A stretch of DNA of 64,000 bases. Origin: Ktedonobacteraceae bacterium. GTDB lineage: Bacteria > Chloroflexota > Ktedonobacteria > Ktedonobacterales > Ktedonobacteraceae. This document shows positions 6,242 to 31,679 of the stretch, piece by piece (position 1 is the first letter of the stretch; each line of letters starts with the position of its first letter). The notes under the pieces are model-generated. The model ran no database searches and was not told where the DNA came from. It saw nothing but the letters and a program-made list of their open reading frames with translations. Both the position numbers and the translations under genes were made by a program. The stretch lies in NCBI GenBank assembly GCA_035653615.1, contig DASRBN010000030.1, positions 186,001 through 250,000 on the forward strand, read 5' to 3'.

Positions 6242-6352
6242 AAAAGAAAAGCTCCTGATTCACGCACCGGGCAGAATCAGGAGCCATTAGCATTGTCGCG
6301 GTTTGACCGGGAAAAAATTCCCTGCTGGTCAGGCGGACTCCATCGCCGTTTT
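6242..6352 (-). promoter_or_regulatory. Fluoride riboswitch (crcB type) with terminator, controlling antiporter-uspA
   Basis: Read on the minus strand, the aptamer starts GGCGATGGAGTCCGCC, continues through a GC hairpin to AAACCGC, and closes with GCTAATGGCTCCTG, the standard crcB-motif layout. The closing strand GGCTCCTGATTC also forms the 5' arm of a terminator whose 3' arm is GAATCAGGAGC, followed by TTTTCTTTTG. Fluoride binding should therefore prevent termination. This copy is the most divergent of the set (GGAGTCC instead of GAAGCTC). Confidence 0.9.
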
Positions 6353-6489
6353 GTTTTTAGACTACCAGAAGTATACAGCATCCCGGTGCTGTATGTCTAG
6401 CTGCCAAATTCCATCGTGGTACAGATGGTTGAGTGAAAATGTTCTCATTTTGAAATGGAACAGTTCCTTGCATACAATAGAAGTATGGG

Positions 6490-6553
6490 GTCAAGCTCTA
6501 TCCTGACATGACACAGTTTTCATGAGGAAGGATAGAGCTTGACGAATTGCTTT
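6490..6553. repeat. Inverted repeat with 15-bp perfect arms
   Basis: GTCAAGCTCTATCCT at 6490-6504 is repeated inverted at 6539-6553, with a 34-base spacer. It lies between two minus-strand riboswitches in a stretch without genes. No U tract follows on either strand, so it is not an obvious terminator. It may be a scar of a mobile element or a protein-binding palindrome. Confidence 0.6.
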
Positions 6554-6577
6554 GCAAATTGTTGCGCAAAAAAAGCT

Positions 6578-6668
6578 TCTACTGCTGTCACTCTACCGAA
6601 AGGTAGTATAGACAGAAAGTAGAAGCCATTAGCCGTAGCGGCTGTATGCGAGCCTCATCGCAAAACGC
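6578..6668 (-). promoter_or_regulatory. Second minus-strand fluoride riboswitch, without an adjacent gene
   Basis: On the minus strand: TGCGATGAGGCTCGCA, a short hairpin, then GGCTAATGGCTTCTAC, the aptamer pattern. The terminator hairpin (GCTTCTACT... AGTAGAAGC) ends in seven U residues at 6578-6584. The next 220 bases downstream hold no gene, only the inverted repeat at 6490-6553 and then the antiporter's own riboswitch. It is either a tandem element in the antiporter leader or the relic of a deleted gene. Confidence 0.88.
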
Positions 6669-6686
6669 AATTCTTTACCTGAATGT

Positions 6687-6760: not shown

Positions 6761-6785
6761 TAGTGTGAGAACAGTACTTCATATA

Positions 6786-6885
6786 GCGATGAAGCTCGCG
6801 TGATTCGCCGTAACGAAACGGCTGATAGCTTCTACTCGGACAGGAAAACCACCTGTTGGATTATTGTCTGAGCAGAAGTTTTTTT
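6786..6885 (+). promoter_or_regulatory. Fluoride riboswitch with terminator, controlling the 6.9-8.5 kb genes
   Basis: GCGATGAAGCTCGC opens the aptamer, CGCCG...CGGCTGATAGCTTCTAC closes it. The last strand pairs again in the terminator (CTTCTACTCGGACA with TGTCTGAGCAGAAG) followed by TTTTTTT at 6879-6885. It precedes two plus-strand genes of unknown function, which makes them candidate fluoride-stress genes. Confidence 0.9.
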
Positions 6886-6928
6886 CTGCTCACTTATGAT
6901 CCAGCGACAGCGAAAGTGAGTGCAAGCA

Positions 6929-7552
6929 ATGGATCAGCCAGATAATGCCGCGAAAAACACTGCCATCATTCAGGGAAGAGCCGTGCGTTCATGCGAACTG
7001 CGCCTGGAACGACGCTCAATGGATGCCAATGGGAGAGAACGTGTGGAATACATCTGTGGAGCAAGCGGGGGGCCTGAACAGGGATATATCTTAGCGGTTG
7101 CCGGAGATGATATCTCATCAATGGTGGCTATCTGCAACTCCTGCCCCATTCCCGACGCGCTCGCGGCTCCCCAGTCGTGTCTGACCCTGGTTCCAATCCG
7201 TCGTTTCTCTGCTGGAAAGCGCAGCCTGCCAGTAATTCAGGCTCATGTACAGCAAACCCAGGAAGATCAAGAGGACGTGCAAGCCGATGTCTTTTTCCCT
7301 TGCCGTTGGTTCTATACATTAGATGGACAAAATCAGCCACGGCATACCTATCGCTGCCGGGGCTGCCCATACTGGTTCCCGCGTCCTCCGCTTGAGCTTT
7401 TCACCGATTACTGGCCCATCACACAAAAGATGCTGCGTGTAGTAAACGGCGAAGAAATCATCGTAAGACCGCGTACCGGCTTTACCCCCTCGAACAGACA
7501 AACCACCAGCAAAACCTGGTGGCGGCGTCTCCTGCAAAAAATCTTCTTTTAA
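6929..7552 (+). CDS. Cysteine-rich protein of unknown function, fluoride-riboswitch controlled
   Basis: A 207-residue protein that I do not recognise. It contains repeated cysteine pairs (ICNSCPIPDA near residue 70, PCRWFYTL near 130, YRCRGCPYWFPRP near 147), suggesting one or two zinc or iron-sulfur sites, then a basic, tryptophan-rich C-terminus (KTWWRRLLQKIFF) that could touch membrane or nucleic acid. ATG 6929 is chosen over the GTG at 6920, although no strong ribosome binding site distinguishes them. It is the first gene after the fluoride riboswitch at 6786-6885 and is followed 35 bp later by the PH-like gene. No signal peptide is visible. Confidence 0.55.
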   Translation: MDQPDNAAKNTAIIQGRAVRSCELRLERRSMDANGRERVEYICGASGGPEQGYILAVAGDDISSMVAICNSCPIPDALAAPQSCLTLVPIRRFSAGKRSLPVIQAHVQQTQEDQEDVQADVFFPCRWFYTLDGQNQPRHTYRCRGCPYWFPRPPLELFTDYWPITQKMLRVVNGEEIIVRPRTGFTPSNRQTTSKTWWRRLLQKIFF

Positions 7553-7587: not shown

Positions 7588-8529
7588 ATGACAAACGAAG
7601 AGGCGATGAGTTATCTTACTGCATCACTGCGTGAGGTTGCCCTGCTCCACTTGCAGCCGGGCGAAACAGTCTTGACAGCTATTTATACTCACCCTACCGA
7701 TGCGCAAACCAGCAACAAATGGTTGTGGTTCACCTGGTATAAGCCGGTTCATCACCCGGCGCGGGCCTTTATCCTCACACCGCAGCGCGTGCTGGTCGTA
7801 GAGGACCCTACGGACCCCACCGTTTCTACTGCCGAGCGCCAGTACCTCTTTGCCTCCTGCCCGCTGGACCACATCATATTCTTCGAGATGCGTTCGCACC
7901 TGCTCGACTGTGCATTGACGCTTGTCATGGCGGGACCAACTGGCTTAGAGCGCGCCACCATCGATTATAATGGCGTCGCTGAGCATGCCTTCCTCGCAGC
8001 AGTGGCCTGCATGCGTGCCCTGATTGTTGGGCGGCCACTGCCACCCTACACCCGACCCGATGCAACCTATACCCGTGAGCGTTCAAACTCGATCAGCGAT
8101 TGGCACGTGGCTCTCACCGGACTGCAACTGAGGCAGGAAAACGCCGTAATACATTACCTGGTGGCAGGCGAACAGGTGCGTGAATGGCTCAGTGTACCGG
8201 TAATCGACGAGAGCGTTTGGTGGCAACGATTCAGCATAGGGGCGCATGAACAGCCACCGACCGTCGTGGTACGCACTGATCGGCAAATTCTGCTGGTCAA
8301 GGAGGTGAAACGGGTAATACGCGGCCAGACCTCCTATGGAACCGAAGCCTGGCTTATGCCTCTGGAACGGTTGCAAGGAGCCAGAGCAGTCCTGGATCAA
8401 CGCAATGAGGTCTGGCTGACCCTCAAACATATGGGGGTGACTGATGTAGTGCGTCTCCCACTTCCTACGGAGCTTACAGAACGTGCCTTAGCGCTCGTTA
8501 CGCCGCCTCTTTTGAGAAGCGAACCGTGA
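7588..8529 (+). CDS. Protein with two PH-like (bacterial pleckstrin-homology-type) repeats, unknown function
   Basis: A 313-residue soluble protein with two similar beta-rich units. The first contains AFILTPQRVLVVEDP (about residue 60), the second TVVVRTDRQILLVKEVKR (about residue 225). These 'T-x-R-x-L-V' strands resemble those of bacterial PH-like domains and also recur in the 572-residue pyrophosphatase-like fusion at 18.9 kb (ILLVTDRQVLWLRD, LVALTRKALLVIEQ). The two proteins therefore look like paralogues in their C-terminal parts, both placed behind fluoride riboswitches. The gene is in an operon with the cysteine-rich gene (35-bp gap, GGTGAGCAATT before ATG). No enzymatic motif is evident. 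Confidence 0.5.
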   Translation: MTNEEAMSYLTASLREVALLHLQPGETVLTAIYTHPTDAQTSNKWLWFTWYKPVHHPARAFILTPQRVLVVEDPTDPTVSTAERQYLFASCPLDHIIFFEMRSHLLDCALTLVMAGPTGLERATIDYNGVAEHAFLAAVACMRALIVGRPLPPYTRPDATYTRERSNSISDWHVALTGLQLRQENAVIHYLVAGEQVREWLSVPVIDESVWWQRFSIGAHEQPPTVVVRTDRQILLVKEVKRVIRGQTSYGTEAWLMPLERLQGARAVLDQRNEVWLTLKHMGVTDVVRLPLPTELTERALALVTPPLLRSEP

Positions 8530-9009: not shown

Positions 9010-9504
9010 TCAATAATACAGTGACCGGAGTTTTTCAAGAGCGTTTTTAATCTCTTGCTCCACCCGTTTAGTGACAACTGGAGGACTCTTGAGTACTTCA
9101 AGCGCTTCCCAGCACCCCTTACGGGCGAGTGCTGCCAGCACCTCGACGATAGTCAGTGCTACCACAAGCCCACGAGGCTGAGCCAGCCGTTTTGTGAGTG
9201 CATCGACGGCCTGGCAATTTCCAAGTTCTCCCAGGGCTTTGCAGATAGCACAGAGTACCCCTATGTCGGTTTCTTCGGAGAAACGTGACATCAGGAAAGG
9301 AATGGCCTGCCTTTCTCGACGTTGTCCTAGCAAGATGGCCGCCAGTTCGCGCGTTTCAGGGATAGGATGCTGGAGCGCCCAGAGCAGTTTCTGATCAAAG
9401 AAGACCGGTTCATTTTGAGCAAACGATTCATTACATTGTTCACAGGTGGTCGCGTCGATCACATTCGCGGCCCAGCATTTGGGACAGAACTGCACGAGCG
9501 CCAT
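9010..9504 (-). CDS. Zinc-ribbon plus HEAT-repeat protein
   Basis: A 164-residue protein. Residues 7-24 carry CPKC...CEQC, a zinc ribbon. The rest forms three or four HEAT-like helical pairs (TRELAAILLGQRRERQAIPFL, GVLCAICKALGELGNCQAVDAL, VALTIVEVLAALARKGCWEAL), typical of adaptor proteins. ATG 9504 has GAAAGGGAGAAATCT upstream. It is the first gene behind the minus-strand fluoride riboswitch, whose terminator U tract ends about 30 bp before the start codon. A protein-binding role is inferred; the partner is unknown. Confidence 0.65.
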   Translation of the reverse strand: MALVQFCPKCWAANVIDATTCEQCNESFAQNEPVFFDQKLLWALQHPIPETRELAAILLGQRRERQAIPFLMSRFSEETDIGVLCAICKALGELGNCQAVDALTKRLAQPRGLVVALTIVEVLAALARKGCWEALEVLKSPPVVTKRVEQEIKNALEKLRSLYY

Positions 9505-9533: not shown

Positions 9534-9622
9534 AAAAAAAGCTTCTATAACACGCAAGACCGTGTTATAGAAGCTATCAACCCCGCGGGGTATCTTTCAA
9601 GGGCGAGCTTCATCACCCCTAC
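9534..9622 (-). promoter_or_regulatory. Fluoride riboswitch with terminator, controlling the HEAT-repeat operon
   Basis: On the minus strand: GGTGATGAAGCTCGCCC, then CCCCGCGGGGTTGATAGCTTCTATAACAC. The last strand doubles as the 5' arm of a terminator (TTCTATAACACG with CGTGTTATAGAAG) that ends in seven U residues at 9534-9540. The lower part of the hairpin is nearly identical to that of the divergent element at 9741-9820. Confidence 0.9.
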
Positions 9623-9694
9623 TTATCTCTCTAGGAGTATAGCATATTTTCAGTAGTTACTGCTAGAATTCATCCTTGTGTCCTTGTGTTTTTC

Positions 9695-9723: not shown

Positions 9724-9740
9724 TCCGAATAGAAAGAAAG

Positions 9741-9820
9741 CGGCGATGAAGCTCGCCCAACAAATGCCGCAAGGCTGATAGCTTCTATAACGCTTACCAG
9801 AGCGTTATAGAAGTTTTTTT
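9741..9820 (+). promoter_or_regulatory. Fluoride riboswitch with terminator, controlling the HAD phosphatase
   Basis: CGGCGATGAAGCTCGCCCAA, then ATGCCGCAAGGCTGATAGCTTCTATAACGC, a near-ideal crcB-motif aptamer close to the well-studied Thermotoga example as I remember it. The terminator (TTCTATAACGCT with AGCGTTATAGAA) ends in TTTTTTT at 9814-9820. The gene behind it starts at 9898. Confidence 0.95.
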
Positions 9821-9897
9821 ATCTCAAGAGGATGAGGGGAAAGGGTTCTACGAAAAACGATGAATTCAGTACGGCCAATAGGAAGCGAGGCATTTGT

Positions 9898-10359
9898 ATG
9901 CTTCAGGTAGATATTCCGCATTGGAGAGTTATCCAGCTTCAACACGCAGTATTTGACATCAATGGAACGCTGGCCATCGATGGAAACCCTTTTCCTGGGG
10001 TCAGGGATCGCCTTGGACAACTGGCCAACCACCTGACGCTCCATGCGTTGACGGCAGGGACTCATGGGAATATAGCCGAACTGCAGCAACTCCTGGATAT
10101 TCCCATTCGCATTATCGGACTGGGAGAAGAGAAAGCGCGCTACGTGCAACAACTTGGTGCCGGGCATGTGGTCGCCATCGGCAATGGGAGAAACGATACC
10201 GGCATGCTTCGTGCAGCAGCTCTTGGCATAGCCATAGTAGCAGGGGAAGGGGCAGCAGCGGCAGCTTTGCAGGCGGCCGATATTATAGCATTGGGGCCAG
10301 TTGATGCGATTGATTTGTTGCTCAATCCAAAAAGGCTCATCGCCACGTTGCGCGGGTAG
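9898..10359 (+). CDS. Soluble HAD-family phosphatase (P-type-ATPase-like, COG4087-like)
   Basis: A 153-residue HAD protein without a cap domain. Motif I is FDINGTLAIDG near residue 21, where the usual second Asp of DxDGT is Asn, as in the 'soluble P-type ATPase' group. Motif IV is AIGNGRNDTGML near residue 98, and a Thr-containing motif II (LTAGTHGNIAEL) lies near 60. The Asp nucleophile is present. ATG 9898 with GGAAGCGAGG upstream is the better start. It sits alone behind a fluoride riboswitch and converges on the NACHT gene (2-bp gap between stops). Beryllofluoride and aluminofluoride mimic the HAD phosphoaspartate, so this protein may be a fluoride-sensitive target or scavenger; that is speculation. 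Confidence 0.75.
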   Translation: MLQVDIPHWRVIQLQHAVFDINGTLAIDGNPFPGVRDRLGQLANHLTLHALTAGTHGNIAELQQLLDIPIRIIGLGEEKARYVQQLGAGHVVAIGNGRNDTGMLRAAALGIAIVAGEGAAAAALQAADIIALGPVDAIDLLLNPKRLIATLRG

Positions 10360-10361
10360 GT

Positions 10362-13076
10362 TCAGTCCAAATACGAGCCGGCCCCGGAGGTCCGTTCTTT
10401 TATCAGGAGAATTCCCTCCCAGGCGGGAACCTGCCCTTGCCGCCGTAGTTCAAGGATCAGCAGGGTCAGATAGAGATCCAGATAACCGGCAATGGCTTGC
10501 TCAAACGCCGCGCTATCCAGGTCGGCATAGTCCTTTCCCCAGAGATAGTGCTGAAACCACCTGGTTACATCCACTGAGAAGAGAAATTGCCCCAATTTGC
10601 TCAAGAAGCATGCCATGTGCAGTGTACATGAACGAAGTGCTGCCATCAATCGTATCCTGCCGTCATCGGAATGCAAGTTATCCTCTGCCTTTCGCATAGC
10701 GAGAGTATTACTTCTTCCACCGCGTTCAAGCGCCCGCTCAAGTAGAGCCAGCAGATGATGGCTCAGGTCGCTGGCACTCACGAGCAGGCCGGCCAGATCA
10801 CGCACGTGTGTAAATATCTTTGTTCGCTCACCGGCAGTCGTTGTCCCACTCAGATCGCCTACCAGTGCCCTATGCAGATCGCTGGTATGAGCCAGAGCAA
10901 GAACTTGCAAGCGCTCAAGAACGGCGGCCAGAGTATGAGCAAGCGCGAATGACTGCTCAAGATCGCATCCCGTCAGGCGCTCGCGGGCCAGCAACAGGTG
11001 GGGAACCAGGTCTCGCTCAAGATCGCACGCAAGAAGGCGCGTCAGTTGATGAGCCAGACCTAGTGGACGAGCGAAGCCAGCAAGATCAGCGGAATGACGC
11101 GACCAGTCGCGAGCAACAAGCTCCTGCATTGTACTGTCCATCCTGGCCAGCATGGGTGGAAGGCTACCTTTCCACGTGGCGCCCGATTCCATATCAATCC
11201 AACAACCGCTACCTCCCGGAAGCACTGGTGTACCGAGGCAGGCTTCGCGATCTGCCGGCTCGTTCCACTCATCCGCGTTAGGGAGACGGTACTGCCATCC
11301 TTCCTGATCCTGTTCGGTCAACCAGCGGCAGAAGGCCCGTGCATCAGAAGCACGTACCCCAAGAACAACTCCGCGGCCCTGCCCCTCCGGCACAGATATC
11401 GATTCCCAATGATCTGGCTGGAAGAAACGTCCATAGAGGCGTTGGGCTTCGAGAAATAGCTGATATTCCGTGCAGGTCAGCAGCGAGCTATCCCTATAGC
11501 TTCCGTCCCTCAGAGCAATCATAGCATGCAAGCGCTTTCTCAGCCATATCTCCGCTGCTGTCTGTCGTTTTGCCGGATCAGGAGCATCCAGATGCTCCTC
11601 TATCAGGCGTTCACAGCGTGCATGCAGAGTAGGCTCAAGGACAGAACGGTGGTGTTCCAGGCAGTGACCGATCAGCGCAAGAACAGAGGCCGGAGTACCG
11701 GGATAGTCCAGGCAAGATTGAAGCAAGGAGTGGGCATCAGCCTGGGTACAAAAGAACCGGATGGTCTCATGCCACCAGCTATTGCCAATCTCATTCGCCA
11801 GAACCTGTTCCAGGCCGTGTTCTCTGGCATACCAGGCCGCAAAATACTCCTGGACGGCCCGGTGTGTAAAGCGATACCGCTGCCCCTCGCACCACAGAAG
11901 GACAGCGCCGCAGGCGCTGATCAGATCCAGGAATGTGCCAGCATGCGGGAAAAGAGAGTCCTGGGCGCTGTACTGAGCAAGAAGATGTTGGGCTTCGCCG
12001 GCGGAGATCTCCCTTTTCCCCGCCTCAAGCGCTGACCAGGCAAGAAGTCCCAGGACCTTTTGTAGCTGAGTGACACTACATTCCCACGTGCCGCTCAGCC
12101 CTTGTAGCTGATCCTGGAGAACGTATAGGATCTCCATAGCCAGTTGTTCCCATTGTGCTGGAAGCACCTGTCGATACTGATACACAGACAGCAGGAGTAG
12201 CAGATGAAGCGGATTGGAAGCAAAAGCGCGTAAGGATGGCGTAGCGCGAAGTTGCTCCAGTAACCCCTGCATCCGGCCTTGCCTGGAAGCTCGTAAAGGC
12301 TCTTTGCCCCAGGAATGGCCAGCCACATTGACATGAAACCATTGTTGCGTATACTGTTCGATCTGTTCCATGCTGAACGGGCAGATTTCCACAACTCCCG
12401 CCTGATCCACCAGCGTCTCATAGCCCTCCAGAGAACGTAGAGTCACGAAGAATCGATTCCGCCGGTACAGAGACATTTGTTGCTGTACCCAGGTGGTCAT
12501 CTGCTTGCGCGTATGTTGGTCAGCAACGGCATCCAACCCGTCGAGCAAAATGACGCATTGAGCCGCGGCTACCACCTCTTCTACCCATGGTCGTGGCACT
12601 GTTTGATGCCACCATTCCTGCATCTGTTCGCAGATGGCATCAACGAGTGAAAAATCGTTGAGGCTTTCTACCAGAGAGGCATAGGCAGGCAGGGAGAGAA
12701 AAACAGGCAGCAGTTTGGGAGTGCCTCGTTGATGTATATCGTGCTTGCTGGCTAGAAGCGAGGCAGCATGGTGTAACAGAGTTGTCTTGCCGCTACCTGG
12801 CGCGCCAACGATCAGCCAATGCCGGATGCCAGATGATGCGGAAAGAAGCAATGTCCGAAGAGGCTGCCTCCCCATATAGTTCGACCCAGTTACCTCATCA
12901 GTTTCAGAGATGAAGCGCGGTACCGACTTCAAAGTGAGCTTAGGCTCGATAAAGATGGGCGCGAGTGCGAGCCGATCTCGTCTCCATATGTGCAGGAGAC
13001 CTACTTTGATCGACTTCTTTCTTTGTCCTATGCTCATCTGTCGCCGGTAGCGTTGCCAGAACTTTCTTTGCTTCAT
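10362..13076 (-). CDS. NACHT-domain STAND ATPase with a formylglycine-generating-enzyme-like segment
   Basis: A 904-residue protein. Residues 91-99 are the P-loop (GAPGSGKTT) and 175-183 the Walker B strand ILLDGLDAV. The helical region after it ends with FTHRAVQEYFAAWYA near residue 415, a common NACHT C-terminal marker. About residues 530-610 resemble the SUMF1/FGE-sulfatase fold (LTCTEYQLFLEAQ, ASDARAFCRWLTEQ, YRLPNADEWNEPA), but the domain is short and lacks its usual ending. The last 250 residues are helical. It is the second gene behind the fluoride riboswitch at 15.1-15.2 kb, after the dynamin-like gene (about 130-bp gap). STAND ATPases usually sense a ligand and oligomerise; the ligand here is unknown. 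Confidence 0.8.
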   Translation of the reverse strand: MKQRKFWQRYRRQMSIGQRKKSIKVGLLHIWRRDRLALAPIFIEPKLTLKSVPRFISETDEVTGSNYMGRQPLRTLLLSASSGIRHWLIVGAPGSGKTTLLHHAASLLASKHDIHQRGTPKLLPVFLSLPAYASLVESLNDFSLVDAICEQMQEWWHQTVPRPWVEEVVAAAQCVILLDGLDAVADQHTRKQMTTWVQQQMSLYRRNRFFVTLRSLEGYETLVDQAGVVEICPFSMEQIEQYTQQWFHVNVAGHSWGKEPLRASRQGRMQGLLEQLRATPSLRAFASNPLHLLLLLSVYQYRQVLPAQWEQLAMEILYVLQDQLQGLSGTWECSVTQLQKVLGLLAWSALEAGKREISAGEAQHLLAQYSAQDSLFPHAGTFLDLISACGAVLLWCEGQRYRFTHRAVQEYFAAWYAREHGLEQVLANEIGNSWWHETIRFFCTQADAHSLLQSCLDYPGTPASVLALIGHCLEHHRSVLEPTLHARCERLIEEHLDAPDPAKRQTAAEIWLRKRLHAMIALRDGSYRDSSLLTCTEYQLFLEAQRLYGRFFQPDHWESISVPEGQGRGVVLGVRASDARAFCRWLTEQDQEGWQYRLPNADEWNEPADREACLGTPVLPGGSGCWIDMESGATWKGSLPPMLARMDSTMQELVARDWSRHSADLAGFARPLGLAHQLTRLLACDLERDLVPHLLLARERLTGCDLEQSFALAHTLAAVLERLQVLALAHTSDLHRALVGDLSGTTTAGERTKIFTHVRDLAGLLVSASDLSHHLLALLERALERGGRSNTLAMRKAEDNLHSDDGRIRLMAALRSCTLHMACFLSKLGQFLFSVDVTRWFQHYLWGKDYADLDSAAFEQAIAGYLDLYLTLLILELRRQGQVPAWEGILLIKERTSGAGSYLD

Positions 13077-13207
13077 CCCTGTTCCTCGTTGCCAGCCTGG
13101 ACTCGATGCCTCTATCTGCTCCAGCTTCTCTCACCTCAGAAAACCGGTCATACATAAAAGAACATATATTGCGAGCAGGACACATACGTCCCCTAAACTT
13201 ATCGCCG

Positions 13208-15049
13208 CTACACGGTTCTTTGATCGGCCATCAGCACACCACCGCGTGCTGCGCGCTCGCCTACCATGAGAACCAGGGCGCGCCGCCATGCATTTGACTC
13301 TTCCTGATTCAAGAGCCCACGACGCAGCGCGTCGCGTTTAAGTGTATAGCTATGCAAATCGTCGACAAGATTTTCGAGCCTTCGCACTTGCTCGCGCAGC
13401 AAAAACTCGGCGGCTGCGCGGCTCTCGATGGCTCTGATGCGGTTGTCTTCCGAGTGAGCGAGCGCGACCTGCAAATGGTGAAGGCAAAGCCCCGCCGAGG
13501 ATGTGTAGTCTTCACGGCCTTCAGCAGTGGCCAGATGTGCGAGAAGTTGCTCAACCTGTACAGAGACCGTCTCGCGCATGAGACGGCATGCTGCGCACGA
13601 CCCGGTACTCGCCAGAAGCTTCTCGACGTGCGCAGCTATGTCCTCAACTCTGGACTCGAGCAGACGTGCCAGCTCACGTGCCAGCGACTCTAAGAGTGGC
13701 GCGTACCCCTCACTGATCCCTTGTGGCGATGCCATCTCTTCCAACTGCCAGGTATGGACGGGGCACAGTCCATGCTCAATCGCGAAAGCCTGTTGGGCGG
13801 CAGGGTTCGTGGCAAGTAGATACTGCCATTTGGCGAAGAACGCGAACAGTACCTGCCCCAAAGTGGTACAGATCAGACAGGTGCCCGCACGGCTATGTGC
13901 CTGCCTGCGGCCAGCCTCTTGCATTGAAGATTGGCTCGCGGCAATTGCCTGCTCAATGACATGTGGATCAGCGGCTACCGGTTCTACTACCCTATGCACT
14001 GTAGCGAGCGGCGTTCCGATCAGTAGCGAGTTGCGCAAGGATTCCATGGACCGGCGTAACTCGACTATGTTCTGCTGGGACTCGCCATTGGTTCGGGGAG
14101 TGACGGGCGTGGGGTTTTCTGAAGCCAGAAGGAGCAAGGCCCGATCCAGGATAGAGACGAGAAAGGTACGTCCCTGTGCTCCGGCGAGAAATGTTGCCAG
14201 CGCCTGTTCGAAGTACGCAAGTCCGCTACGCTGGATGCCCACATCGTCGTGGGTCAGTTTCGCTTTGAGACCATCGCGAGCTGAGAGGGGAAAGAGATGT
14301 ATTGCTCCCGTCCCCAAAAGCTGCTCCATGTGTGTTTGAATGTAGCCGAGTACTTCCTCGCGTTCCGTTTCACCGAGCAGGTCTATCTTATTCACCACGA
14401 TGAACAATTGGCGCACCTGACCCCGAATGTCGAGAAGGAAGCGTTCCTCTGCTTCTGACAGCGGCGCCTCGACGCTCGTCACGAAGATGACTGCTGCCAT
14501 TTGCGGAAGAAAGGCATAGGTGGTGGCGGTGTTCTCTTGCCGCGCTGAGCCGATGCCGGGAGTATCGATGAAGTGCAGGCCGCGCCGCAGAAACGGCAGC
14601 GGCAACTCAATGCGTGCTTCGATCAGCCCTTTCTCATTACCGGGATTGCCACGCTCGGTGATATATTCAGCCAGTTCCGTCATTGGAACCTCTTGCTCCA
14701 ATGTCCATCCCTTGCGACGCAGCACCACCCGTTCTTTCGACCCATAGCAAAGTGTGGTGATCGCCGACGTTAAGGGCAGCAGTCCTGTCGGCAATAAATC
14801 GCTCCCCAACACCGCGTTCATCAAGGTACTCTTGCCACGCTTGAACTGGCCGACAACCGCCAGGTTGAAACGGTCTTCCGCAAGCTGAACCACCAGTTCC
14901 TGGCAACGCTCGACCTCTTCTTGCGCGCCATGTTCCTGGAAAAATTGCTTGGTGGCACGAACTGCTGCAGCCACTTCCTGCTTGACAAGCGTGTAGTGCC
15001 GTAGGGAGTCTTCCTCATCTGTACTAGTGCCTGGCAATACTCGCTCCAC
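13208..15049 (-). CDS. Dynamin-like GTPase with C-terminal cysteine/histidine zinc-type domain
   Basis: A protein of about 613 residues. GTP motifs are complete: P-loop GQFKRGKST near 67-75, switch-I threonine in LTSAITTL near 93-100, DTPG near 160, NKID near 215. This is the bacterial dynamin-like (membrane-remodelling) GTPase pattern. The C-terminal 250 residues lack an obvious membrane paddle. Instead they have Cys/His pairs (CLICTT, LCPVHTW, CAACRLM, LCLHHL) like DUF6062-type proteins. I chose GTG 15049, which has GGAGGAGGG seven bases upstream; the TTG at 15073 would include that ribosome binding site inside the gene. It lies directly behind a fluoride riboswitch and ahead of the NACHT gene. 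A membrane-repair role under fluoride stress is a guess. Confidence 0.8.
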   Translation of the reverse strand: MERVLPGTSTDEEDSLRHYTLVKQEVAAAVRATKQFFQEHGAQEEVERCQELVVQLAEDRFNLAVVGQFKRGKSTLMNAVLGSDLLPTGLLPLTSAITTLCYGSKERVVLRRKGWTLEQEVPMTELAEYITERGNPGNEKGLIEARIELPLPFLRRGLHFIDTPGIGSARQENTATTYAFLPQMAAVIFVTSVEAPLSEAEERFLLDIRGQVRQLFIVVNKIDLLGETEREEVLGYIQTHMEQLLGTGAIHLFPLSARDGLKAKLTHDDVGIQRSGLAYFEQALATFLAGAQGRTFLVSILDRALLLLASENPTPVTPRTNGESQQNIVELRRSMESLRNSLLIGTPLATVHRVVEPVAADPHVIEQAIAASQSSMQEAGRRQAHSRAGTCLICTTLGQVLFAFFAKWQYLLATNPAAQQAFAIEHGLCPVHTWQLEEMASPQGISEGYAPLLESLARELARLLESRVEDIAAHVEKLLASTGSCAACRLMRETVSVQVEQLLAHLATAEGREDYTSSAGLCLHHLQVALAHSEDNRIRAIESRAAAEFLLREQVRRLENLVDDLHSYTLKRDALRRGLLNQEESNAWRRALVLMVGERAARGGVLMADQRTV

Positions 15050-15121
15050 AGTATCACCCTCCTCCATAAACAAGAATCATTGCCTGCGTTTCTCGCGATA
15101 GGTTCTGAGAGGAGGAGCAAC

Positions 15122-15222
15122 AAAAAAGCTCCTACCACCGCCTTCCTGCGCGAGGTAGAAGCCATTAGCCGCATACATATCTGGCTTGCGGCAATTTGGG
15201 CGAGCTTCATCGCCATGCGGGT
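15122..15222 (-). promoter_or_regulatory. Fluoride riboswitch with terminator, controlling dynamin-like/NACHT operon
   Basis: On the minus strand: GGCGATGAAGCTCGCCCAA, TTGCCGCAAG..., then GCGGCTAATGGCTTCTACC. The terminator pairs GGCTTCTACC with GGTAGGAGC and ends in six U residues at 15122-15127. Confidence 0.92.
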
Positions 15223-15242
15223 TAAACCGCTCCTGGACTATT

Positions 15243-15272
15243 ATTGTAGCACCTGTGAGCAATTTGCGTCAA
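15243..15272 (-). promoter_or_regulatory. Promoter for the dynamin-like/NACHT leader
   Basis: Minus strand TTGACG (15267-15272) and TACAAT (15243-15248) with 18-bp spacing, about 20 bp before the aptamer. It diverges from the MutS-like promoter at 15287-15316; the two -35 boxes are only 14 bp apart. Confidence 0.7.
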
Positions 15273-15286
15273 CGCCCAGTTTTCCC

Positions 15287-15316
15287 TTGACGTTCATAAC
15301 GAGCGTTTCGTATACT
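15287..15316 (+). promoter_or_regulatory. Promoter for the MutS-like pair leader
   Basis: TTGACG (15287-15292) and TATACT (15311-15316) with 18-bp spacing. The same TTGACG, 18 bp, TATACT layout, with the shared string GTTTCGTATACTAT, recurs at 18561-18590, so the two leaders are duplicated copies. Confidence 0.75.
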
Positions 15317-15334
15317 ATAACAAAAGACCATGAT

Positions 15335-15428
15335 CCTGCGATGAGGCTCGCACAATGCCGCAAGGCTAATAGCTTCTACGCGCTGCTCAGCATCCTGTAT
15401 TGCTGGTGCCAGCGGTAGAAGTTTTTTT
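15335..15428 (+). promoter_or_regulatory. Fluoride riboswitch with terminator, controlling the MutS-like pair
   Basis: CTGCGATGAGGCTCGCA, then ATGCCGCAAGGCTAATAGCTTCTACGC. The terminator pairs CTTCTACGCGCTG with CAGCGGTAGAAG and ends in TTTTTTT. The aptamer is almost identical to the element at 18611-18704 (one base differs in CTAATAGC versus CTAATGGC), pointing to a recent duplication. Confidence 0.93.
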
Positions 15429-15517
15429 ATGTCCGCGAATCGCGGGTCAACCATCAGGGCCGTATCTTGCTAGCAGCAGAACGCAAATGCTCGTATAGCG
15501 GCCCAGGAGTTTCTACC

Positions 15518-17053
15518 ATGACTTTCTCTAGCATTCTGTTTCAAAGAACTGAGGACGGCAGAAAAGCGGAAGCAGTTAAAAGGCCCGACTTTTTTGTTGA
15601 TTTGAATCTCGATCAAATTATCGGTGTCATCATAGCTGGTAAAGAGGAATACAAGTTACAGCCCTTTTTCTCTACTCCCCTGCACGATATTGGCGCCATC
15701 ACCTATCGTCATGAGATCATGCGCGATCTCGAAAATACGACGCTGTTTGGGCATATACAAGCATTTGCCCAAAAAATGCGTGCCATGCGCGAACACCTGA
15801 CACGAGTAGAGAAGCTGCACTACCACTATCAGAAGGAACGCTGGTTTCTGGAAGCAGTCCAGATGTACTGTGATGCCGTAGCCGGCCTCGCCCACGATCT
15901 GTCCCTGGTCGAGCTACAATCGAGCGGTTTTCTGGCTTTTCGAGACTATGTGACGAACTATGCCAGTTCTGGCCCTTTTACGTCACTTCAGGCAGAAACA
16001 AGGAAGCTTCTGGCAGATCTATCGGCAGTAAAATACTGCCTGCTTATCAGGGGCAATAGTGTCAAAGTTCGCAAATACGATGCTGAGAGCGATTATAGCC
16101 TGGATGTCGAGGAAACCTTCGCCAAGTTCAAGCAGGGAGCGGTCAAAGATTATCGTGTTGCGTTTAAGCACTGGCAGGAGATGGATCATGTGGAAGCGCA
16201 AATCCTTGATCTGGTAGCCAGATTGTATCCCGATATCTTTGGCCACCTCGATGATTACTGCATCAGCAACAGGAAGTACCTGGATGAAACAATCGGTCGC
16301 TTTGACCGGGAAGTGCAATTTTATATCGCTTACCTGGAATATATCGCGCGTTTCAAACACAGTGGGTTGAACTTCTGCTACCCGCGTATTTCGGCTACAT
16401 CGAAGGATGTCCGTGCCTCTGAAAGCTTTGATGTCGCCCTGGCCTATAAACTCATGAAAGAACGCTCGCCGGTGGTCTGCAATGATTTTGCGTTACAAGG
16501 AAAGGAGCGTATCATCGTTGTCACCGGCCCCAACCAGGGTGGCAAGACCACCTTTGCCCGCACCTTCGGGCAACTGCATTACCTGGCGAGCCTGGGCTGT
16601 CCCGTTCCAGGCCGGGAAGCGCAGCTTTTTCTCTTTGACCGACTCTTTACGCATTTTGAAAAGGAAGAAACCATCAAAGACCTGCGTGGTAAGCTAGAGG
16701 ATGACCTGGTAAGGATTCATCGCATTTTAGATCAGGCAACCTCCAATAGCATTGTCATTTTGAATGAAATGTTCAACTCCACTACGCTGGATGACGCCTT
16801 GTTTTTGAGCAAAAAAATCATGGAAGAGGTACTTCGCCTCGATCTGCTATGTGTATGGGTCACGTTTATTGACGAACTGGCGTCGTTCAGTGAGAAAGTT
16901 GTCAGTATGGTCAGTACGGTGGTTCCCGACAATCCTGCGCAGCGCACGTTTAAAATCGTCAGAAAACCCGCCGACGGACTGGCCTATGCGCTGGCTATTG
17001 CCGAAAAATACCGGCTGACCTATACCAGTGTCAAGGAGCGCATACACGCATGA
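15518..17053 (+). CDS. MutS-like ATPase without mismatch-recognition domain (first of a pair)
   Basis: A 511-residue protein related to the lever/clamp plus ATPase part of MutS. Residues 337-345 are the P-loop GPNQGGKTT, with the Walker B region NSIVILNEMF near 415 and the H-loop-like segment VWVTFIDELASF near 450. The mismatch-recognition and connector domains of canonical MutS (over 800 residues) are absent, and so is the Smr nuclease of MutS2. ATG 15518 follows CCCAGGAG, so I do not use the upstream in-frame start. It overlaps the next, homologous gene by 4 bp (ATGA), implying coupled synthesis and perhaps a heterodimer, since MutS ATPases dimerise. MutS-like genes are reported partners of fluoride riboswitches, but their role is unsolved. 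Confidence 0.85.
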   Translation: MTFSSILFQRTEDGRKAEAVKRPDFFVDLNLDQIIGVIIAGKEEYKLQPFFSTPLHDIGAITYRHEIMRDLENTTLFGHIQAFAQKMRAMREHLTRVEKLHYHYQKERWFLEAVQMYCDAVAGLAHDLSLVELQSSGFLAFRDYVTNYASSGPFTSLQAETRKLLADLSAVKYCLLIRGNSVKVRKYDAESDYSLDVEETFAKFKQGAVKDYRVAFKHWQEMDHVEAQILDLVARLYPDIFGHLDDYCISNRKYLDETIGRFDREVQFYIAYLEYIARFKHSGLNFCYPRISATSKDVRASESFDVALAYKLMKERSPVVCNDFALQGKERIIVVTGPNQGGKTTFARTFGQLHYLASLGCPVPGREAQLFLFDRLFTHFEKEETIKDLRGKLEDDLVRIHRILDQATSNSIVILNEMFNSTTLDDALFLSKKIMEEVLRLDLLCVWVTFIDELASFSEKVVSMVSTVVPDNPAQRTFKIVRKPADGLAYALAIAEKYRLTYTSVKERIHA

Positions 17054-18564
17054 AAGCCTTCCTGCTCTATAGAGATCGCGATTTTGACATCCAGCGGCCA
17101 TTGCCACCGAACGCACCGGCGCTCGTACAAGACCTGGAATTAAGCACCCTGTTCAAGGCCATGGCCCTTGGAGATACGTTTTTATTCGACGTGGTACAGA
17201 AAGTGATGCTCAACAGTCTCACCGACCTGGACGCGATCCGCTATCGCCAGGATATCCTGCAGGACTGCCTGAAAAACGCACCTATTATCCGGGAAATCTA
17301 TACGCTTGCCATAGAAGCAATTGAGGGGGAGAGAAAAAATTATCTTGGCCTGCTGACCAATTATCCTTCCTGGGTTCTGAGTCGCTCGATTGAAGTACTC
17401 AAGATGTTTGTGGAACTGCTAAGAAAGCTCAGGCAGCTTGCCGGAGAACACGTGGCCCGCTTCGAGTCAGAGGGATTTACCACATTTTTCGCTATGCTGC
17501 AACGAGAACTGAGCGAGGATTATCTTGCCAGCGTCCAGGAGCATCTGCGGGCATTGAAATTCCCTCATGGAGCTCTGATCAGCGCCGAACTGGGGCAGGG
17601 CAACAAAGGTACCAATTACACCCTGCGCAAGCCGCCAGATCAGAAACAGAACTGGGTCGAGCGAATCTTCGCGGAAAAACCAACTACCTATGGCTTCACG
17701 ATTGATGACCGTGATGAAAGCGGTTCCAGGGCATTATCAGACTTAAAAGATCGGGGGTTCAACCTGGCGGCCAATGCGCTCGCCCAGTCCGTAGATCACG
17801 TACTCAGCTTTTTTCAGATGGTGAAGACTGAATTGGCTTTCTACCTGGGTTGTATGAATCTCTATGCGCAACTTACCCAGATGGGTGAGCCGGTATGCTT
17901 CCCGGTGCCCCTGGCTGCCGGCGAACGCAGTCATGTCTTCCAGGGTTTGTACGATGCCTGCCTGGCGCTTACTATGAAACAAACGGTGGTAGGGAATGAC
18001 CTGGAAGCCGCGGGAAAAGACCTCGTCATCATCACCGGGGCCAACCAGGGCGGCAAATCGACGTTTTTGCGCAGCATTGGCCTGGCGCAAGTGATGATGC
18101 AATCTGGCATCTTTGTTCCTGCTGAGTCTTTCAGTGCCAATGTCTGCGCAGCCCTGTTTACACACTACAAACGTAAAGAAGATGCCAGCATGAAAAGCGG
18201 CAAGCTGGATGAAGAACTGAGCAGGATGAGCGCGATCATCGACATGATCACGCCCAATGCCATGGTGCTGCTAAATGAATCATTTGCCGCGACCAATGAA
18301 AGAGAAGGTTCAGAGATCGCGCGGCAGATCGTAAGCGCGTTAGTGGAGAGGCGCGTAGAGGTATTCTTCGTGACGCACTTATACGAATTTGCGCATGGCT
18401 TTTACCAACAACGAAAAGGGAATGTCCTGTTCCTGCGGGCTGATCGACAAGCCGATGGCAGGCGGACGTTTAAATTAATCGAGGGAGAACCACTTCAGAC
18501 CAGCTTTGGCGAGGATGTGTATCACAAGGTATTCGGAACAGCGAACTTGTCAGATTTCTCTTGA
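17050..18564 (+). CDS. MutS-like ATPase without mismatch-recognition domain (second of a pair)
   Basis: A 504-residue protein with the same architecture as its upstream neighbour: an all-helical region of about 300 residues, then the MutS ATPase with P-loop GANQGGKST at 330-338, the Walker B region PNAMVLLNESFAATN near 410, and VFFVTHLYEFAH near 440. The usual DExH acidic residue is present as Glu (LNES). The two proteins share only moderate identity, so they probably form a specialised heterodimer rather than a simple duplicate. The stop codon (18562-18564) overlaps the -35 box of the next promoter. Expression should depend on the fluoride riboswitch at 15335-15428. Confidence 0.85.
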   Translation: MKAFLLYRDRDFDIQRPLPPNAPALVQDLELSTLFKAMALGDTFLFDVVQKVMLNSLTDLDAIRYRQDILQDCLKNAPIIREIYTLAIEAIEGERKNYLGLLTNYPSWVLSRSIEVLKMFVELLRKLRQLAGEHVARFESEGFTTFFAMLQRELSEDYLASVQEHLRALKFPHGALISAELGQGNKGTNYTLRKPPDQKQNWVERIFAEKPTTYGFTIDDRDESGSRALSDLKDRGFNLAANALAQSVDHVLSFFQMVKTELAFYLGCMNLYAQLTQMGEPVCFPVPLAAGERSHVFQGLYDACLALTMKQTVVGNDLEAAGKDLVIITGANQGGKSTFLRSIGLAQVMMQSGIFVPAESFSANVCAALFTHYKRKEDASMKSGKLDEELSRMSAIIDMITPNAMVLLNESFAATNEREGSEIARQIVSALVERRVEVFFVTHLYEFAHGFYQQRKGNVLFLRADRQADGRRTFKLIEGEPLQTSFGEDVYHKVFGTANLSDFS

Positions 18565-18590: not shown

Positions 18591-18610
18591 ATGAGGGAAG
18601 AGAAGAACAC

Positions 18611-18704
18611 GATCCTGCGATGAGGCTCGCACAATGCCGCAAGGCTAATGGCTTCTACGCGCTGCTCAGCATAGTAAGTGCCGGCAGCGGTAGAAGTTTT
18701 TTTT
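18611..18704 (+). promoter_or_regulatory. Fluoride riboswitch with terminator, controlling the crcB operon
   Basis: CTGCGATGAGGCTCGCA, then ATGCCGCAAGGCTAATGGCTTCTACGC. The terminator (CTTCTACGCGCTG... CAGCGGTAGAAG) ends in TTTTTTTT. It heads the operon that carries both FluC/CrcB fluoride channels, the classical target of this riboswitch, which supports the identification of the whole family of elements in this window. Confidence 0.95.
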
Positions 18705-18865: not shown

Positions 18866-18901
18866 ATGCGAAAAGAGGAGGCGAAGATCAGCAATAGATG
18901 A
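18866..18901 (+). CDS. Putative 11-codon leader peptide overlapping the next start codon
   Basis: ATG 18866 has a very strong ribosome binding site (GGGAGGGAGGGAGT) and encodes MRKEEAKISNR. Its stop TGA overlaps the start of the pyrophosphatase-like gene as ATGA. The larger gene has only a distant GAGGAGG of its own, inside this short frame. Translational coupling through a leader peptide is therefore plausible. It could be chance, and no attenuator is visible. Confidence 0.4.
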   Translation: MRKEEAKISNR

Positions 18902-20616
18902 GCAAGCATGACGAACTACACGAGGAGAAACAGCCGCGCCAGGAGGGGCAAAAGGTCGCTCAGCATATAGAGATCGAGGTGCGCGTCCGCCGGCCACGCT
19001 GTGATTGTCCCATCTACGAATGGGATCGCGAGCTTGAATGCATGCGCTTGAGCGGTGTCTATCGCGCGGAGCCAGGATTGCCTGCCGACCTCGCCACGCT
19101 CAGGTTGGAGGAGCAGTTGGACGTACCCGTCCTTTTACTGACCACCTATAGTTCTCCTCCTGAAACGATCGTGCGCGCCCGGCTCATTGGTGCGCTCCAT
19201 TACATACCCGCCGGGGAAGCGCAGGCAACAGGACTACCGCTGGAAAACTCGGTCTGTATCGCCGCCACCTTGGTAGATACATCCCTATCCGGTTACTGCT
19301 CGCTAGAAATGCTACCCGCCTCACAACTTGCTTCCCTGAAGGCATATGTGCAAACAACAGGAGGCGAGGAGTTGCCGCAGGATGCTGTAACGATTGATAT
19401 GCACAATGCGGAAGCCGCGGCCAGTTTGCTCCGCGAGACACGCCTGGCGCTGAAGAGAGAGCGACGTATGCAGCCGAAAGGCAAGCGCTGGTTCAAACGC
19501 GAGGAGGAAGAGCGACCGGTCGCATGGCGCGCTATCGAAGGATTATCAGAGGCGCTGCGCCTGCAAGTGCAGAAAGATGCCCTGCTGCAAGATTCCGGAA
19601 CTGGCCCGCATGCCCAGGCCGAACACCTGATTCGTTTTGTACACCAGCGCTTTCAGCAGGCGCTGTCCGACCTCTTGCTTGACGATGAGCGCCTGCTGGC
19701 ATTTGTGGAACGTCCCCTGTTGCGCCATCGTACCGGCTGGTTGGGGATACAGACCTGGCGCTCCAATGAAGGCATCTTGCTTGTCACGGACCGGCAGGTA
19801 CTCTGGCTGCGCGACTTTCTCTCGCCGGGTAACAACTTCTTGTCTGGAGGGTACATTGCGCATACAGCTCCTTTAGAGCGGTTAGAGCGTATTATCGTCC
19901 TGCCCGCCGGCGATGCTCCCCCTGAACTTGCGCCACGCATGGAAACAAAGGATTCGCCCTATATGCGCCTGGTGATGGAGGTAGCCTGCTCTTGCGGCAG
20001 CGAACTCTTTGTCGTTGAGTTTCCGCAGCAACCCGAGCTAGAAAAAGCCCTGGCCAGCATCACGAGCATCTTGCGCGCCTTTCTGCCACGACCAGACGGA
20101 TATGAGGACCGGCGTGTGCGCAGCCTGCCGCAGGTCGAACCATGGTTGCCCCTGGGCTCTGAAGCTGAGCAACTGGAAGGATTGGGTGGAATAGTTCCAG
20201 CATCTATTACGCAGCCCCTCGAACAGCGGTTGGCCCGCCTGCTAGATACAGCGGGAGAGGAACTTTTAGCCTCGGCCCTGGTTCCCGCGCTTGAAGACTA
20301 TACCAGCCCACCACGCCTGGTTGCGCTGACACGCAAGGCTCTGCTTGTCATCGAACAACCACAGGAGAAGCATCGCCCTTTCATCTCTGGACGACCAGGT
20401 CAACACGAGCATGTGCGGCGCTACGAAGTGGTCTCTGTCTCCTCTGCGCAGCTTCGCTATTCGTTAGTAGGCTCGAGTCTGAGCATCTTTGTACCCGGCT
20501 CGGATGGACACGTGCAGCAACAGGTCGTTCCTTTCCACAGCCCGGCAATTGCCCGCTTTCTGCCGCTCTTTACCAGACTGCGGCTGCTCTTGAGCGAACC
20601 ATATCAATTGCATTAA
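18898..20616 (+). CDS. Degenerate inorganic-pyrophosphatase-like domain fused to two PH-like domains
   Basis: A 572-residue protein. Residues about 25-165 follow the order of family I inorganic pyrophosphatase: CPIYEWDRELECMRLSGVYRAEPGLPADL (compare the PPase YEYDKELG...YPADYGF stretch), LDVPVLLLTTYSSPPETIVRARLIGAL (compare DPLDVLVL...RPIGVL), and ENSVCIAA. Several metal-binding Asp residues of the active site appear replaced, so catalysis is doubtful. The rest holds two PH-like units (ILLVTDRQVLWLRD near 290, LVALTRKALLVIEQ near 485) related to the protein at 7588-8529. Pyrophosphatase is fluoride-sensitive and a known fluoride-regulon member. This form may sense or buffer rather than hydrolyse. 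It is the first large gene of the crcB operon. Confidence 0.6.
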   Translation: MSKHDELHEEKQPRQEGQKVAQHIEIEVRVRRPRCDCPIYEWDRELECMRLSGVYRAEPGLPADLATLRLEEQLDVPVLLLTTYSSPPETIVRARLIGALHYIPAGEAQATGLPLENSVCIAATLVDTSLSGYCSLEMLPASQLASLKAYVQTTGGEELPQDAVTIDMHNAEAAASLLRETRLALKRERRMQPKGKRWFKREEEERPVAWRAIEGLSEALRLQVQKDALLQDSGTGPHAQAEHLIRFVHQRFQQALSDLLLDDERLLAFVERPLLRHRTGWLGIQTWRSNEGILLVTDRQVLWLRDFLSPGNNFLSGGYIAHTAPLERLERIIVLPAGDAPPELAPRMETKDSPYMRLVMEVACSCGSELFVVEFPQQPELEKALASITSILRAFLPRPDGYEDRRVRSLPQVEPWLPLGSEAEQLEGLGGIVPASITQPLEQRLARLLDTAGEELLASALVPALEDYTSPPRLVALTRKALLVIEQPQEKHRPFISGRPGQHEHVRRYEVVSVSSAQLRYSLVGSSLSIFVPGSDGHVQQQVVPFHSPAIARFLPLFTRLRLLLSEPYQLH

Positions 20617-20665: not shown

Positions 20666-21190
20666 ATGTTGGGACACGGCAACGAACAACCAGGGAAAGA
20701 GGAGCAAGAAAGTCGATCCAGGGCAAGACTCCTCAGTGAAAACCACCGCCGGGTGCTGGCTAATACCCTGCGCCGGGTGGAGTTAGCGGCATGTCGCCTG
20801 GAGGAACAGCTCACCAGAGAGACAATGTCGCAGCTTACGCTTACTCGTTTTACGAACCCACCTACGCCGGAGCAGCGTGCAGCACTCCTGCAGCTCGTCA
20901 AACACATACGCCGGCAGGTAGTGCAACTTGCCGAGGACTACCATTTAGAGGTGGGGGAGCAGCACATGCTGCGCACCATTATGGGCGAGTTTACGCTCTT
21001 ATGGTGCGATGTGGAAGACATACGCCCGCGCAAACTGCGGGCCTACGGTGAAGTCCATCCACAATTGCAGGCGGTACTTGATCCCCCACTGAAGCGGCTG
21101 ATCGAGCTACTGCTTGCTGTTGATGGTGTTGCCAGTGGTACACTGGAGCCAGGACATGTGCAACCGAGCGGCGAGGAAAACAATCTATAG
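20666..21190 (+). CDS. Helical protein of unknown function in the crcB operon
   Basis: A 174-residue, largely alpha-helical, soluble protein with long charged helices (HRRVLANTLRRVELAACRLE, LLQLVKHIRRQVVQLAEDYH). I do not recognise a family. ATG 20666 has an AAGAGG about 12 bases upstream. It is 49 bp after the pyrophosphatase-like gene and 54 bp before the DUF190-CBS gene, so it belongs to the same fluoride-controlled transcript. Confidence 0.55.
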   Translation: MLGHGNEQPGKEEQESRSRARLLSENHRRVLANTLRRVELAACRLEEQLTRETMSQLTLTRFTNPPTPEQRAALLQLVKHIRRQVVQLAEDYHLEVGEQHMLRTIMGEFTLLWCDVEDIRPRKLRAYGEVHPQLQAVLDPPLKRLIELLLAVDGVASGTLEPGHVQPSGEENNL

Positions 21191-29272: not shown

Positions 29273-29356
29273 AAAAAAAGCTTCTACAACGCGCTCATGT
29301 GCGTTATAGAAGCCATCAGCCTTCCGGCATTTTCGGGGCGAGCTTCATCGCCTTGC
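29273..29356 (-). promoter_or_regulatory. Fluoride riboswitch with terminator, controlling the moxR operon
   Basis: On the minus strand: AGGCGATGAAGCTCGCCCC, then ATGCCGGAAGGCTGATGGCTTCTATAACGC. The terminator (CTTCTATAACGC with GCGTTGTAGAAG, one G-U pair) ends in seven U residues at 29273-29279. The start codon of moxR is 43 bp further on. Confidence 0.93.
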
Positions 29357-29360
29357 AACA

Positions 29361-29842
29361 ATGCATACGATCTCTTCTTCTTCTGCTCTAAGCATAGCAC
29401 AGAATCGCCGGGTAATCCAGTGCTTGAGCAGATACCTCTCCGGCAGCGAGTACTTGCAAATATTGCATTAGCCGATCGCGCTTCGTGTAGCGAGCATGCA
29501 GGTCGGGATCCCGCTCCGCTGTATCTATGCGCGCCCGCACATGCTGCAAGCTTTACAGGCGTATAGGCGGCGCAAGCCCCTTGATCAAGAGCGCGAGCTA
29601 CCCTCTCGGGTAGAGGAAGCCGGGGAACAGATCGAACACGAGGTAAAACGAGCGACCCTGTCTGCTCTCGTCGGGCTGATTTGAGTCTCACCAAAGATAC
29701 TCAGAAAGTTTACATGCATCCGAACGTGGTTGGACGAGGTCTTAGCACACTCCCGCCGTCAACAACACATGCAGAGAAGTACTATCGAAGAGAAGTACCT
29801 GGTCAACATTGAGGCCCTCGCTGCTCAGTTGGACGCTTCCCC
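29361..29842. other. Intergenic stretch with a possible truncated gene start
   Basis: There is no convincing complete gene here. On the plus strand, ATG 29769 opens MQRSTIEEKYLVNIEALAA and runs straight into the left end of the IS630 element at 29843. It may be the 5' stub of a gene cut by the insertion, perhaps the same gene whose TPR-like 3' part lies at 33150-33734 beyond the two insertion sequences. It lacks a clear ribosome binding site, so the link is weak. Confidence 0.3.
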
Positions 29843-29888
29843 AGTGCATTTTCAAGAAAGGTAATTGGGAATGTGGTATACTGAGAGG

Positions 29889-31629: not shown

Positions 31630-31679
31630 AAATGCACTAGAGACCTGCCCGTTCCACAAAAGTCAGCTAAAGTAAGGGT

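Follow-up and report, generated by a model that had tools for sequence, protein, structure and literature searches.

Organization of the locus

A 64,000-nucleotide (nt) stretch of the genome of a Ktedonobacteraceae bacterium (phylum Chloroflexota; assembly GCA_035653615.1, contig DASRBN010000030.1, positions 186,001 to 250,000), referred to here as the window, carries on its minus strand, between positions 10362 and 15272, a promoter-like site, a fluoride riboswitch aptamer, an intrinsic terminator, a gene for a dynamin-like GTPase, and a gene for a NACHT ATPase, in that order (Table 1). A preliminary description had placed a dynamin-like GTPase with an unusual Cys/His C-terminal domain and a NACHT ATPase behind a fluoride riboswitch, and these assignments, including their coordinates, are borne out by the domain and RNA searches.

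The aptamer scores 38.7 bits against an Rfam gathering cut-off of 34 (E = 3.5e-7 in an RF01734 search of the whole window) and starts 20 nt downstream of the promoter-like site. Its 3′ arm is at the same time the 5′ arm of the terminator, whose imperfect stem and 8-nt loop lie outside the reach of a simple scan and which was detected by a separate terminator analysis. The aptamer fold is supported by covariation across 46 homologous aptamers: 99.3% of the pseudoknot cells are paired, with GC/AU and CG/UA double changes, and for the hairpin and the pseudoknot together 99.1% of the cells are paired, with 55 double-change cells versus 15.5 in shuffles; controls with slid structures give 45 to 54% pairing. 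Promoter, aptamer, and overlapping terminator together have the anatomy of an ON switch, from which a response to fluoride is predicted.

A simple consensus scan of the minus strand from 12900 to 15400 reveals no second promoter-like site and no terminator-like site. Transcription starting 3′ of the riboswitch, an objection raised in the preliminary description, finds no support, there being no promoter-like site between the aptamer and the GTPase gene or between the GTPase and NACHT genes, as far as can be told from a scan that cannot exclude further promoters and whose one promoter call is itself a consensus match rather than proof.

The dynamin-like GTPase

The GTPase gene has three candidate start codons (TTG at 15073, ATG at 15067, and GTG at 15049), among which the choice is uncertain; the GTG is preceded by GGAGG. 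In an alignment of 17 full-length orthologs, the G1 (GQFKRGKS), G3 (DTPG), and G4 (NKxD) motifs are invariant or nearly so. A profile of the orthologs matches the bacterial dynamin-like protein (DLP) BDLP (6e-41), IniA, and the Campylobacter jejuni DLP pair (structure 5owv). The AlphaFold2 model (mean predicted local distance difference test score [pLDDT] of 79, predicted template modeling score [pTM] of 0.65) has BDLP, the closest solved structure, IniA, and mitofusin as its top Foldseek matches, with a fold match of 1.5e-14 and TM-scores (normalized by the query) of 0.33 to 0.42; the structures superpose well mainly in the G domain and the neck. The profile and, mainly for these regions, the predicted fold assign the protein to the BDLP/mitofusin/IniA class.

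The C-terminal part of the protein is a DUF6062 (PF19538) domain (46.3 bits versus a gathering cut-off of 27) that holds the Cys/His motifs. All eight Cys and His residues of its two CxxC...CxxH modules are invariant in the same 17 orthologs, and these modules are likely zinc sites. Standalone DUF6062 (Cys/His) proteins also exist and share operons with GTPase-DUF6062 fusions (L007 11175-15885 and L046 4039-5355). A phage search returned a single partial match and no sign of the GTPase being a phage gene.

Recurrence of the GTPase behind fluoride riboswitches

The GTPase is sparsely distributed among the relatives of its host: a full-length ortholog is found in 2 of 47 genomes of the class, that of the window included, and 7 of 400 genomes of the phylum have a match at E ≤ 1e-40. 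Each of the six other carriers in the phylum has fluoride riboswitches on the same contig as the GTPase gene. GTPase peptides used as queries against GTDB genomes, without regard to RNA, yielded 80 loci from carriers labeled as Chloroflexota, Nitrospirota, Bacillota (Sporomusaceae and Tepidanaerobacteraceae), Armatimonadota, Verrucomicrobiota, Planctomycetota, Acidobacteriota, Bacteroidota, Omnitrophota, and others, most of them metagenome bins. Cultured carriers include Anaerolinea thermolimosa, Fervidicola ferrireducens, Thermovorax subterraneus, and Lucifera butyrica.

A same-strand riboswitch lies no more than 470 nt upstream of the GTPase gene in 39 of the 80 loci, usually 10 to 80 nt before the start codon, and 1.2 to 7.4 kb upstream in a further 16. 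These riboswitches were called with a covariance model built from the 46 aptamers, an earlier regular-expression search having missed many; as this model was partly trained on aptamers of the same loci, the count shows linkage and not independent aptamer discovery. The Rfam model by itself leads to the same conclusion: 31 of 49 stretches encoding a Dynamin_N domain have a same-strand RF01734 match within 3.5 kb upstream, where 0.08 would be expected given how many riboswitches each genome has (33 genomes, picked for carrying the GTPase). Overlapping terminators accompany 64 of the 104 riboswitches across the GTPase loci (2.25 expected). In a quick tree of 85 G domains (branch support by the Shimodaira-Hasegawa-like approximate likelihood ratio test only), the riboswitch link is spread throughout: of the 64 family members that remain once one 18-member clade, considered below, and three control paralogs are set aside, 57 have the link, and several of the unlinked loci have little upstream sequence. 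Chance proximity of GTPase and riboswitch was rejected on the strength of the linkage in the tree, the terminators, and the Rfam-only counts. The preliminary suggestion of fluoride control of the pair is supported, as a prediction, for the GTPase, whose link to the riboswitch recurs over many phyla and far beyond chance; GTPase and NACHT as a pair are not supported.

The NACHT ATPase

The gap between the GTPase and NACHT genes measures 131 nt, and no promoter or terminator was found there by the consensus scan; the two genes are probably cotranscribed in this genome. No homolog of the window NACHT was found in any other GTPase neighborhood searched, and the two genes therefore do not make up a conserved unit. 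Its relatives (33 to 36% identity for the best ones, about 925 to 1330 amino acids [aa]) come only from some genomes, six to eight in number, of the family to which this bacterium belongs. These genomes lack this GTPase and have no fluoride riboswitch near the NACHT gene; where they do have fluoride riboswitches, these are on other contigs or about 1 to 3 Mb away (the control loci comprised only about 1.5 kb of flank). A conserved GTPase-NACHT module was rejected because the relatives are not near fluoride riboswitches, and the NACHT ATPase is a lineage-local addition under the same switch, outside the conserved module.

The segment described earlier as a truncated FGE-like domain is indeed present as a 39-residue FGE-sulfatase fragment (residues 570 to 608), which falls below the Pfam cut-off (18.5 versus 23.3 bits, E = 0.0017); FGE enzyme activity was rejected, as there is nothing beyond this subthreshold fragment. 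The NACHT relatives carry the same fragment, which makes it a family trait rather than a local truncation, and share the C-terminal tail as well. Compared with these NACHT/STAND ATPases of the same family, the window protein is the only copy found behind a fluoride riboswitch, and it lacks the kinase domain of a longer relative (L013). An ATPase partner of a different kind does recur: five or six Nitrospirota loci encode a small (268-aa) STAND-like ATPase directly behind the GTPase. In these fluoride operons, the ATPase gene overlaps the end of the GTPase gene (L102 2826-3629 and homologs). One Verrucomicrobia metagenome-assembled genome has a complete FGE-sulfatase gene between the GTPase gene and a weak riboswitch match (L047 8323-9321).

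Possible functions of the GTPase

On balance, the fluoride-inducible dynamin-like GTPase is best regarded as a recurrent member of bacterial fluoride regulons that probably protects the membrane, a role that would fit the dynamin-like family. Hydrogen fluoride (HF) leaking into the cell would raise cytosolic fluoride, which would bind the nascent leader; with the leader in its fluoride-bound form, the terminator would not be formed, and the GTPase would be made along with the exporters and the proteins of pH homeostasis. It might then assemble in a GTP-dependent manner at the cytoplasmic membrane crossed by HF and stabilize, reseal, or remodel it or, alternatively, organize the Fluc channels and antiporters there. 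Either action could limit the leak of HF and protons, with the zinc-like tail probably being a docking or assembly module.

Several observations weigh against this assignment. The membrane role is drawn from family membership, and the GTPase may act on proteins or DNA instead. There is no clear hydrophobic paddle past the G domain: the highest 19-residue average beyond residue 290 is 1.71, in a stretch that overlaps the CxxC motif, so that action at the membrane is deduced from the family. A 590-aa branch of the GTPase family lacks the DUF6062 tail, which is therefore not essential to the fluoride link. The 18-member clade mentioned above, nearly all labeled as Desulfobacterota/Syntrophobacterales, has no riboswitch link, and in several linked loci kilobases separate the upstream riboswitch from the GTPase gene, so that the genes in between may have promoters of their own.

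The GTPase could also, in the manner of enolase or pyrophosphatase, be overproduced to compensate for the inhibition by fluoride of a resident GTPase-dependent process, such as division or envelope upkeep, with no special link to membrane damage. Enolase, whose overexpression has been described as compensation (PMC11139923), is often a neighbor of the GTPase under the same switches; however, in many carriers the GTPase is the sole Dynamin_N protein found, which leaves no evident housekeeping paralog whose place it could take, and we give this explanation perhaps one chance in a handful. Rather less likely is that the GTPase works through metal-fluoride chemistry instead of chiefly through membrane repair. 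GDP in complex with AlF4-, MgF3-, or BeF3- resembles bound GTP, and fluoride itself would thus lock the GTPase in an assembled form, which would act as a sensor or a sink of metal-fluoride complexes, with partner P-loop ATPases serving the same end. Dynamin-class GTPases do bind GDP.AlF4 (human Dlp1, 3w6p, is among the fold matches), and ATPases follow the GTPase both here (NACHT) and in Nitrospirota (the small STAND-like proteins), but binding of GDP-metal-fluoride is common to P-loop NTPases, and no sequence feature marks out this GTPase family. A bolder version, in which the GTPases are effectors dedicated to bacterial fluoride resistance across phyla and GDP-metal-fluoride complexes directly drive their assembly, appears more doubtful still; if true, fluoride would both induce the GTPase via RNA and activate it via the active site.

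Two further explanations are highly improbable. The role in phage defence considered in the preliminary description, with GTPase and NACHT forming an antiphage system cued by fluoride-linked stress, could draw on the fact that NACHT/STAND ATPases and some dynamins are known from defence systems and on the PADLOC matches of the GTPase, which are only distant ones to LeoA/LeoBC, other dynamins. The NACHT protein, for its part, has no good PADLOC or NCBIfam defence match (the NCBIfam match is far below the cut-off), it is missing from all the other GTPase neighborhoods, and no further defence genes were recognized in the island, the conserved neighbors and the surroundings being genes of fluoride and pH homeostasis; a defence pair was rejected for want of conserved pairing and because of this gene context. 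It is about as hard to credit that the GTPase is just one gene of a general stress island, with an incidental riboswitch link. The ten riboswitches detected in this genome are clustered, so any gene of the island lies near one, yet the link recurs over many phyla and in differing gene orders, with the riboswitch mostly 10 to 80 nt before the start codon. This explanation is already largely refuted by the upstream placement, the tree, and the counts within genomes.

Relation to known systems

To our knowledge, the physiological roles of most bacterial DLPs are unknown, and an expression cue visible in the RNA leader provides a direct experimental handle on their function, namely, the addition of fluoride. 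The GTPase shares its motifs and, by profile and (mainly for the G domain and neck) by fold, its architecture class with BDLP (2j68/2j69), IniA (6j72), the C. jejuni DLP pair (5owv), and LeoA/B/C. Unlike these DLPs, it is under predicted fluoride riboswitch control, and the C-terminus of its branch is a DUF6062 Cys/His tail with no recognizable membrane paddle. It appears, from its leader, to be stress inducible like IniA, which drug treatment induces (PMC6715688). Most DLP genes occur as pairs within operons (PMC6104087), but this genome has a single DLP gene at the locus.

The leader has the same aptamer and the same overlapping-terminator logic as the known regulon of the fluoride riboswitch (crcB motif), and the companion genes common to both comprise exporters, Na+/H+ antiporter, MutS, HAD, enolase, and formate-hydrogenlyase-like genes (PMC2864571, PMC11139923). 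The 2010 description of the motif lists mutS, K+ or Cl- transport, and formate hydrogen lyase (PMC2864571), and a 2024 review lists exporters, Na+/H+ antiporters, pyrophosphatase, HADs, enolase, and formate hydrogen lyase (PMC11139923). The text of the latter contains neither "GTPase" nor "dynamin," and the former likewise names no dynamin-like GTPase; a mechanochemical GTPase is a kind of component absent from both of these sources. In a literature search that excluded the survey by Baker et al. (Science, 2012), fluoride, dynamin, and riboswitch never occurred together; an earlier listing of the GTPase in that survey is thus possible and is the main uncertainty about novelty. The dynamin-like GTPase apparently represents an undescribed part of bacterial fluoride survival and suggests that membrane integrity or organization matters under fluoride, in addition to export and the control of pH.

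The fluoride island and neighboring genes

Although a single riboswitch leads the GTPase-NACHT transcript, as described earlier, it is one of nine in the window, and a tenth is found about 10 bases to the left of the window (L009 9936-9992). All 10 RF01734 matches detected in the 6.59-Mb genome, upon scoring the best 150 of 898 first-look candidates, lie within 29.4 kb (contig positions 185935 to 215361; window positions -66 to 29361). Related genomes usually have none to five riboswitches, and such packing of ten into one island of about 30 kb also differs from the published regulon. A terminator overlaps the 3′ arm of the aptamer in 9 of the 10, where 0.35 would be expected from shuffled downstream sequence. 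The two crcB genes were identified by clustering with CrcB homologs, and the unit starting at position 167 on the plus strand is, in our reading, one of hydrogenase-4/formate-hydrogenlyase-like membrane subunits. The island is a fluoride regulon that includes the GTPase.

Table 1. Features of the GTPase-NACHT transcript and other fluoride riboswitches of the window
Feature	Position	Strand	Basis
Promoter, sigma-70-like (TTGACG-18 nt-TACAAT, TG before the -10 element)	15243..15272	-	Consensus scan
Fluoride riboswitch aptamer of the GTPase transcript (RF01734)	15149..15223	-	Rfam covariance model
Intrinsic terminator, predicted ON switch	15122..15163	-	-21.8 kcal/mol, z -2.9, followed by U6
Dynamin-like GTPase with DUF6062 tail	13208..15073	-	Pfam Dynamin_N 2e-25, DUF6062 4.5e-12
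Two CxxC...CxxH modules	13475..13879	-	C398, C401, C436, H439; C492, C495, C529, H532 of the 620-aa reading
NACHT (STAND) ATPase, second gene of the transcript, containing a degenerate FGE-like segment	10362..13076	-	PF05729 3.6e-15
Riboswitch for the MutS-like (MutS_V) pair 15467-17053, 17050-18564; divergent from the GTPase riboswitch	15328..15385	+	
Riboswitch for HAD-like gene 9832-10359	9733..9794	+	Rfam
Riboswitch for Zn-ribbon/HEAT gene 9010-9504	9561..9626	-	Rfam, weak (E = 8e-4); own model (E = 4.9e-9)
Riboswitch for uncharacterized proteins 6920-7552, 7588-8529	6776..6841	+	
Riboswitch, upstream member of the tandem before the Na+/H+ exchanger	6613..6671	-	
Riboswitch for Na+/H+ exchanger 4999-6186 and UspA-like 4483-4905	6271..6356	-	Rfam
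Riboswitch before 18898-20616, 20666-21190, 21245-22597, crcB 22647-23345, crcB 23336-23917	18607..18664	+	
Riboswitch for MoxR 28240-29229, DUF58 26849-28240, DUF4129 25366-26967, and probably MFS 24062-25240	29300..29361	-	

Across the GTPase loci, the genes that follow riboswitches encode Na+/H+ exchangers (12), CrcB (12 and 11, in two clusters), MutS-like proteins (11), UspA (11), MFS transporters (9), HAD proteins (7), enolase (6), Zn-HEAT proteins (6), and MoxR/DUF58/DUF4129 (5/4/4); the count for the GTPase itself cannot be set beside these, as the loci were picked for carrying it. In one of the six other carriers in the phylum (G014), the island is reshuffled yet recognizable, with identities of 58 to 59% for the MutS pair, 41% for HAD, 69% for MFS, 49% for the GTPase, and 57 to 75% for the hyf-like genes. 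A plasmid of the lichen bacterium Lichenicola cladoniae encodes a homolog annotated as "dynamin family protein" (32% identity over 94%). The gene for this homolog diverges from a crcB gene led by a riboswitch, and a universal stress protein and a sodium:proton antiporter are encoded nearby. This is an independent case, with no direct riboswitch control of the dynamin gene.

Short intergenic regions of the island hold divergent riboswitch pairs (6613/6776, 9561/9733, and 15149/15328), and similar pairs are seen in G014, Lucifera (L041), and others. Tandem arrangements also occur, with two riboswitches before the Na+/H+ exchanger (6263-6671, minus strand) and three in a row in Lucifera butyrica (L041 3521-3794, minus strand). 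The copies at 15328-15393 and 18607-18672 on the plus strand are near-identical and flank the MutS-like pair, which suggests a recent duplication. At the right edge of the island there are transposase-like open reading frames (29852-33006, judged from their translations) and a group II intron match (30865-30961). The 572-aa protein encoded at 18898-20616 has no Pfam or NCBIfam match and is the first gene product behind its fluoride riboswitch; its counterpart in G014 (L008 1139-3154, 26% identity) is likewise encoded first behind a fluoride riboswitch.

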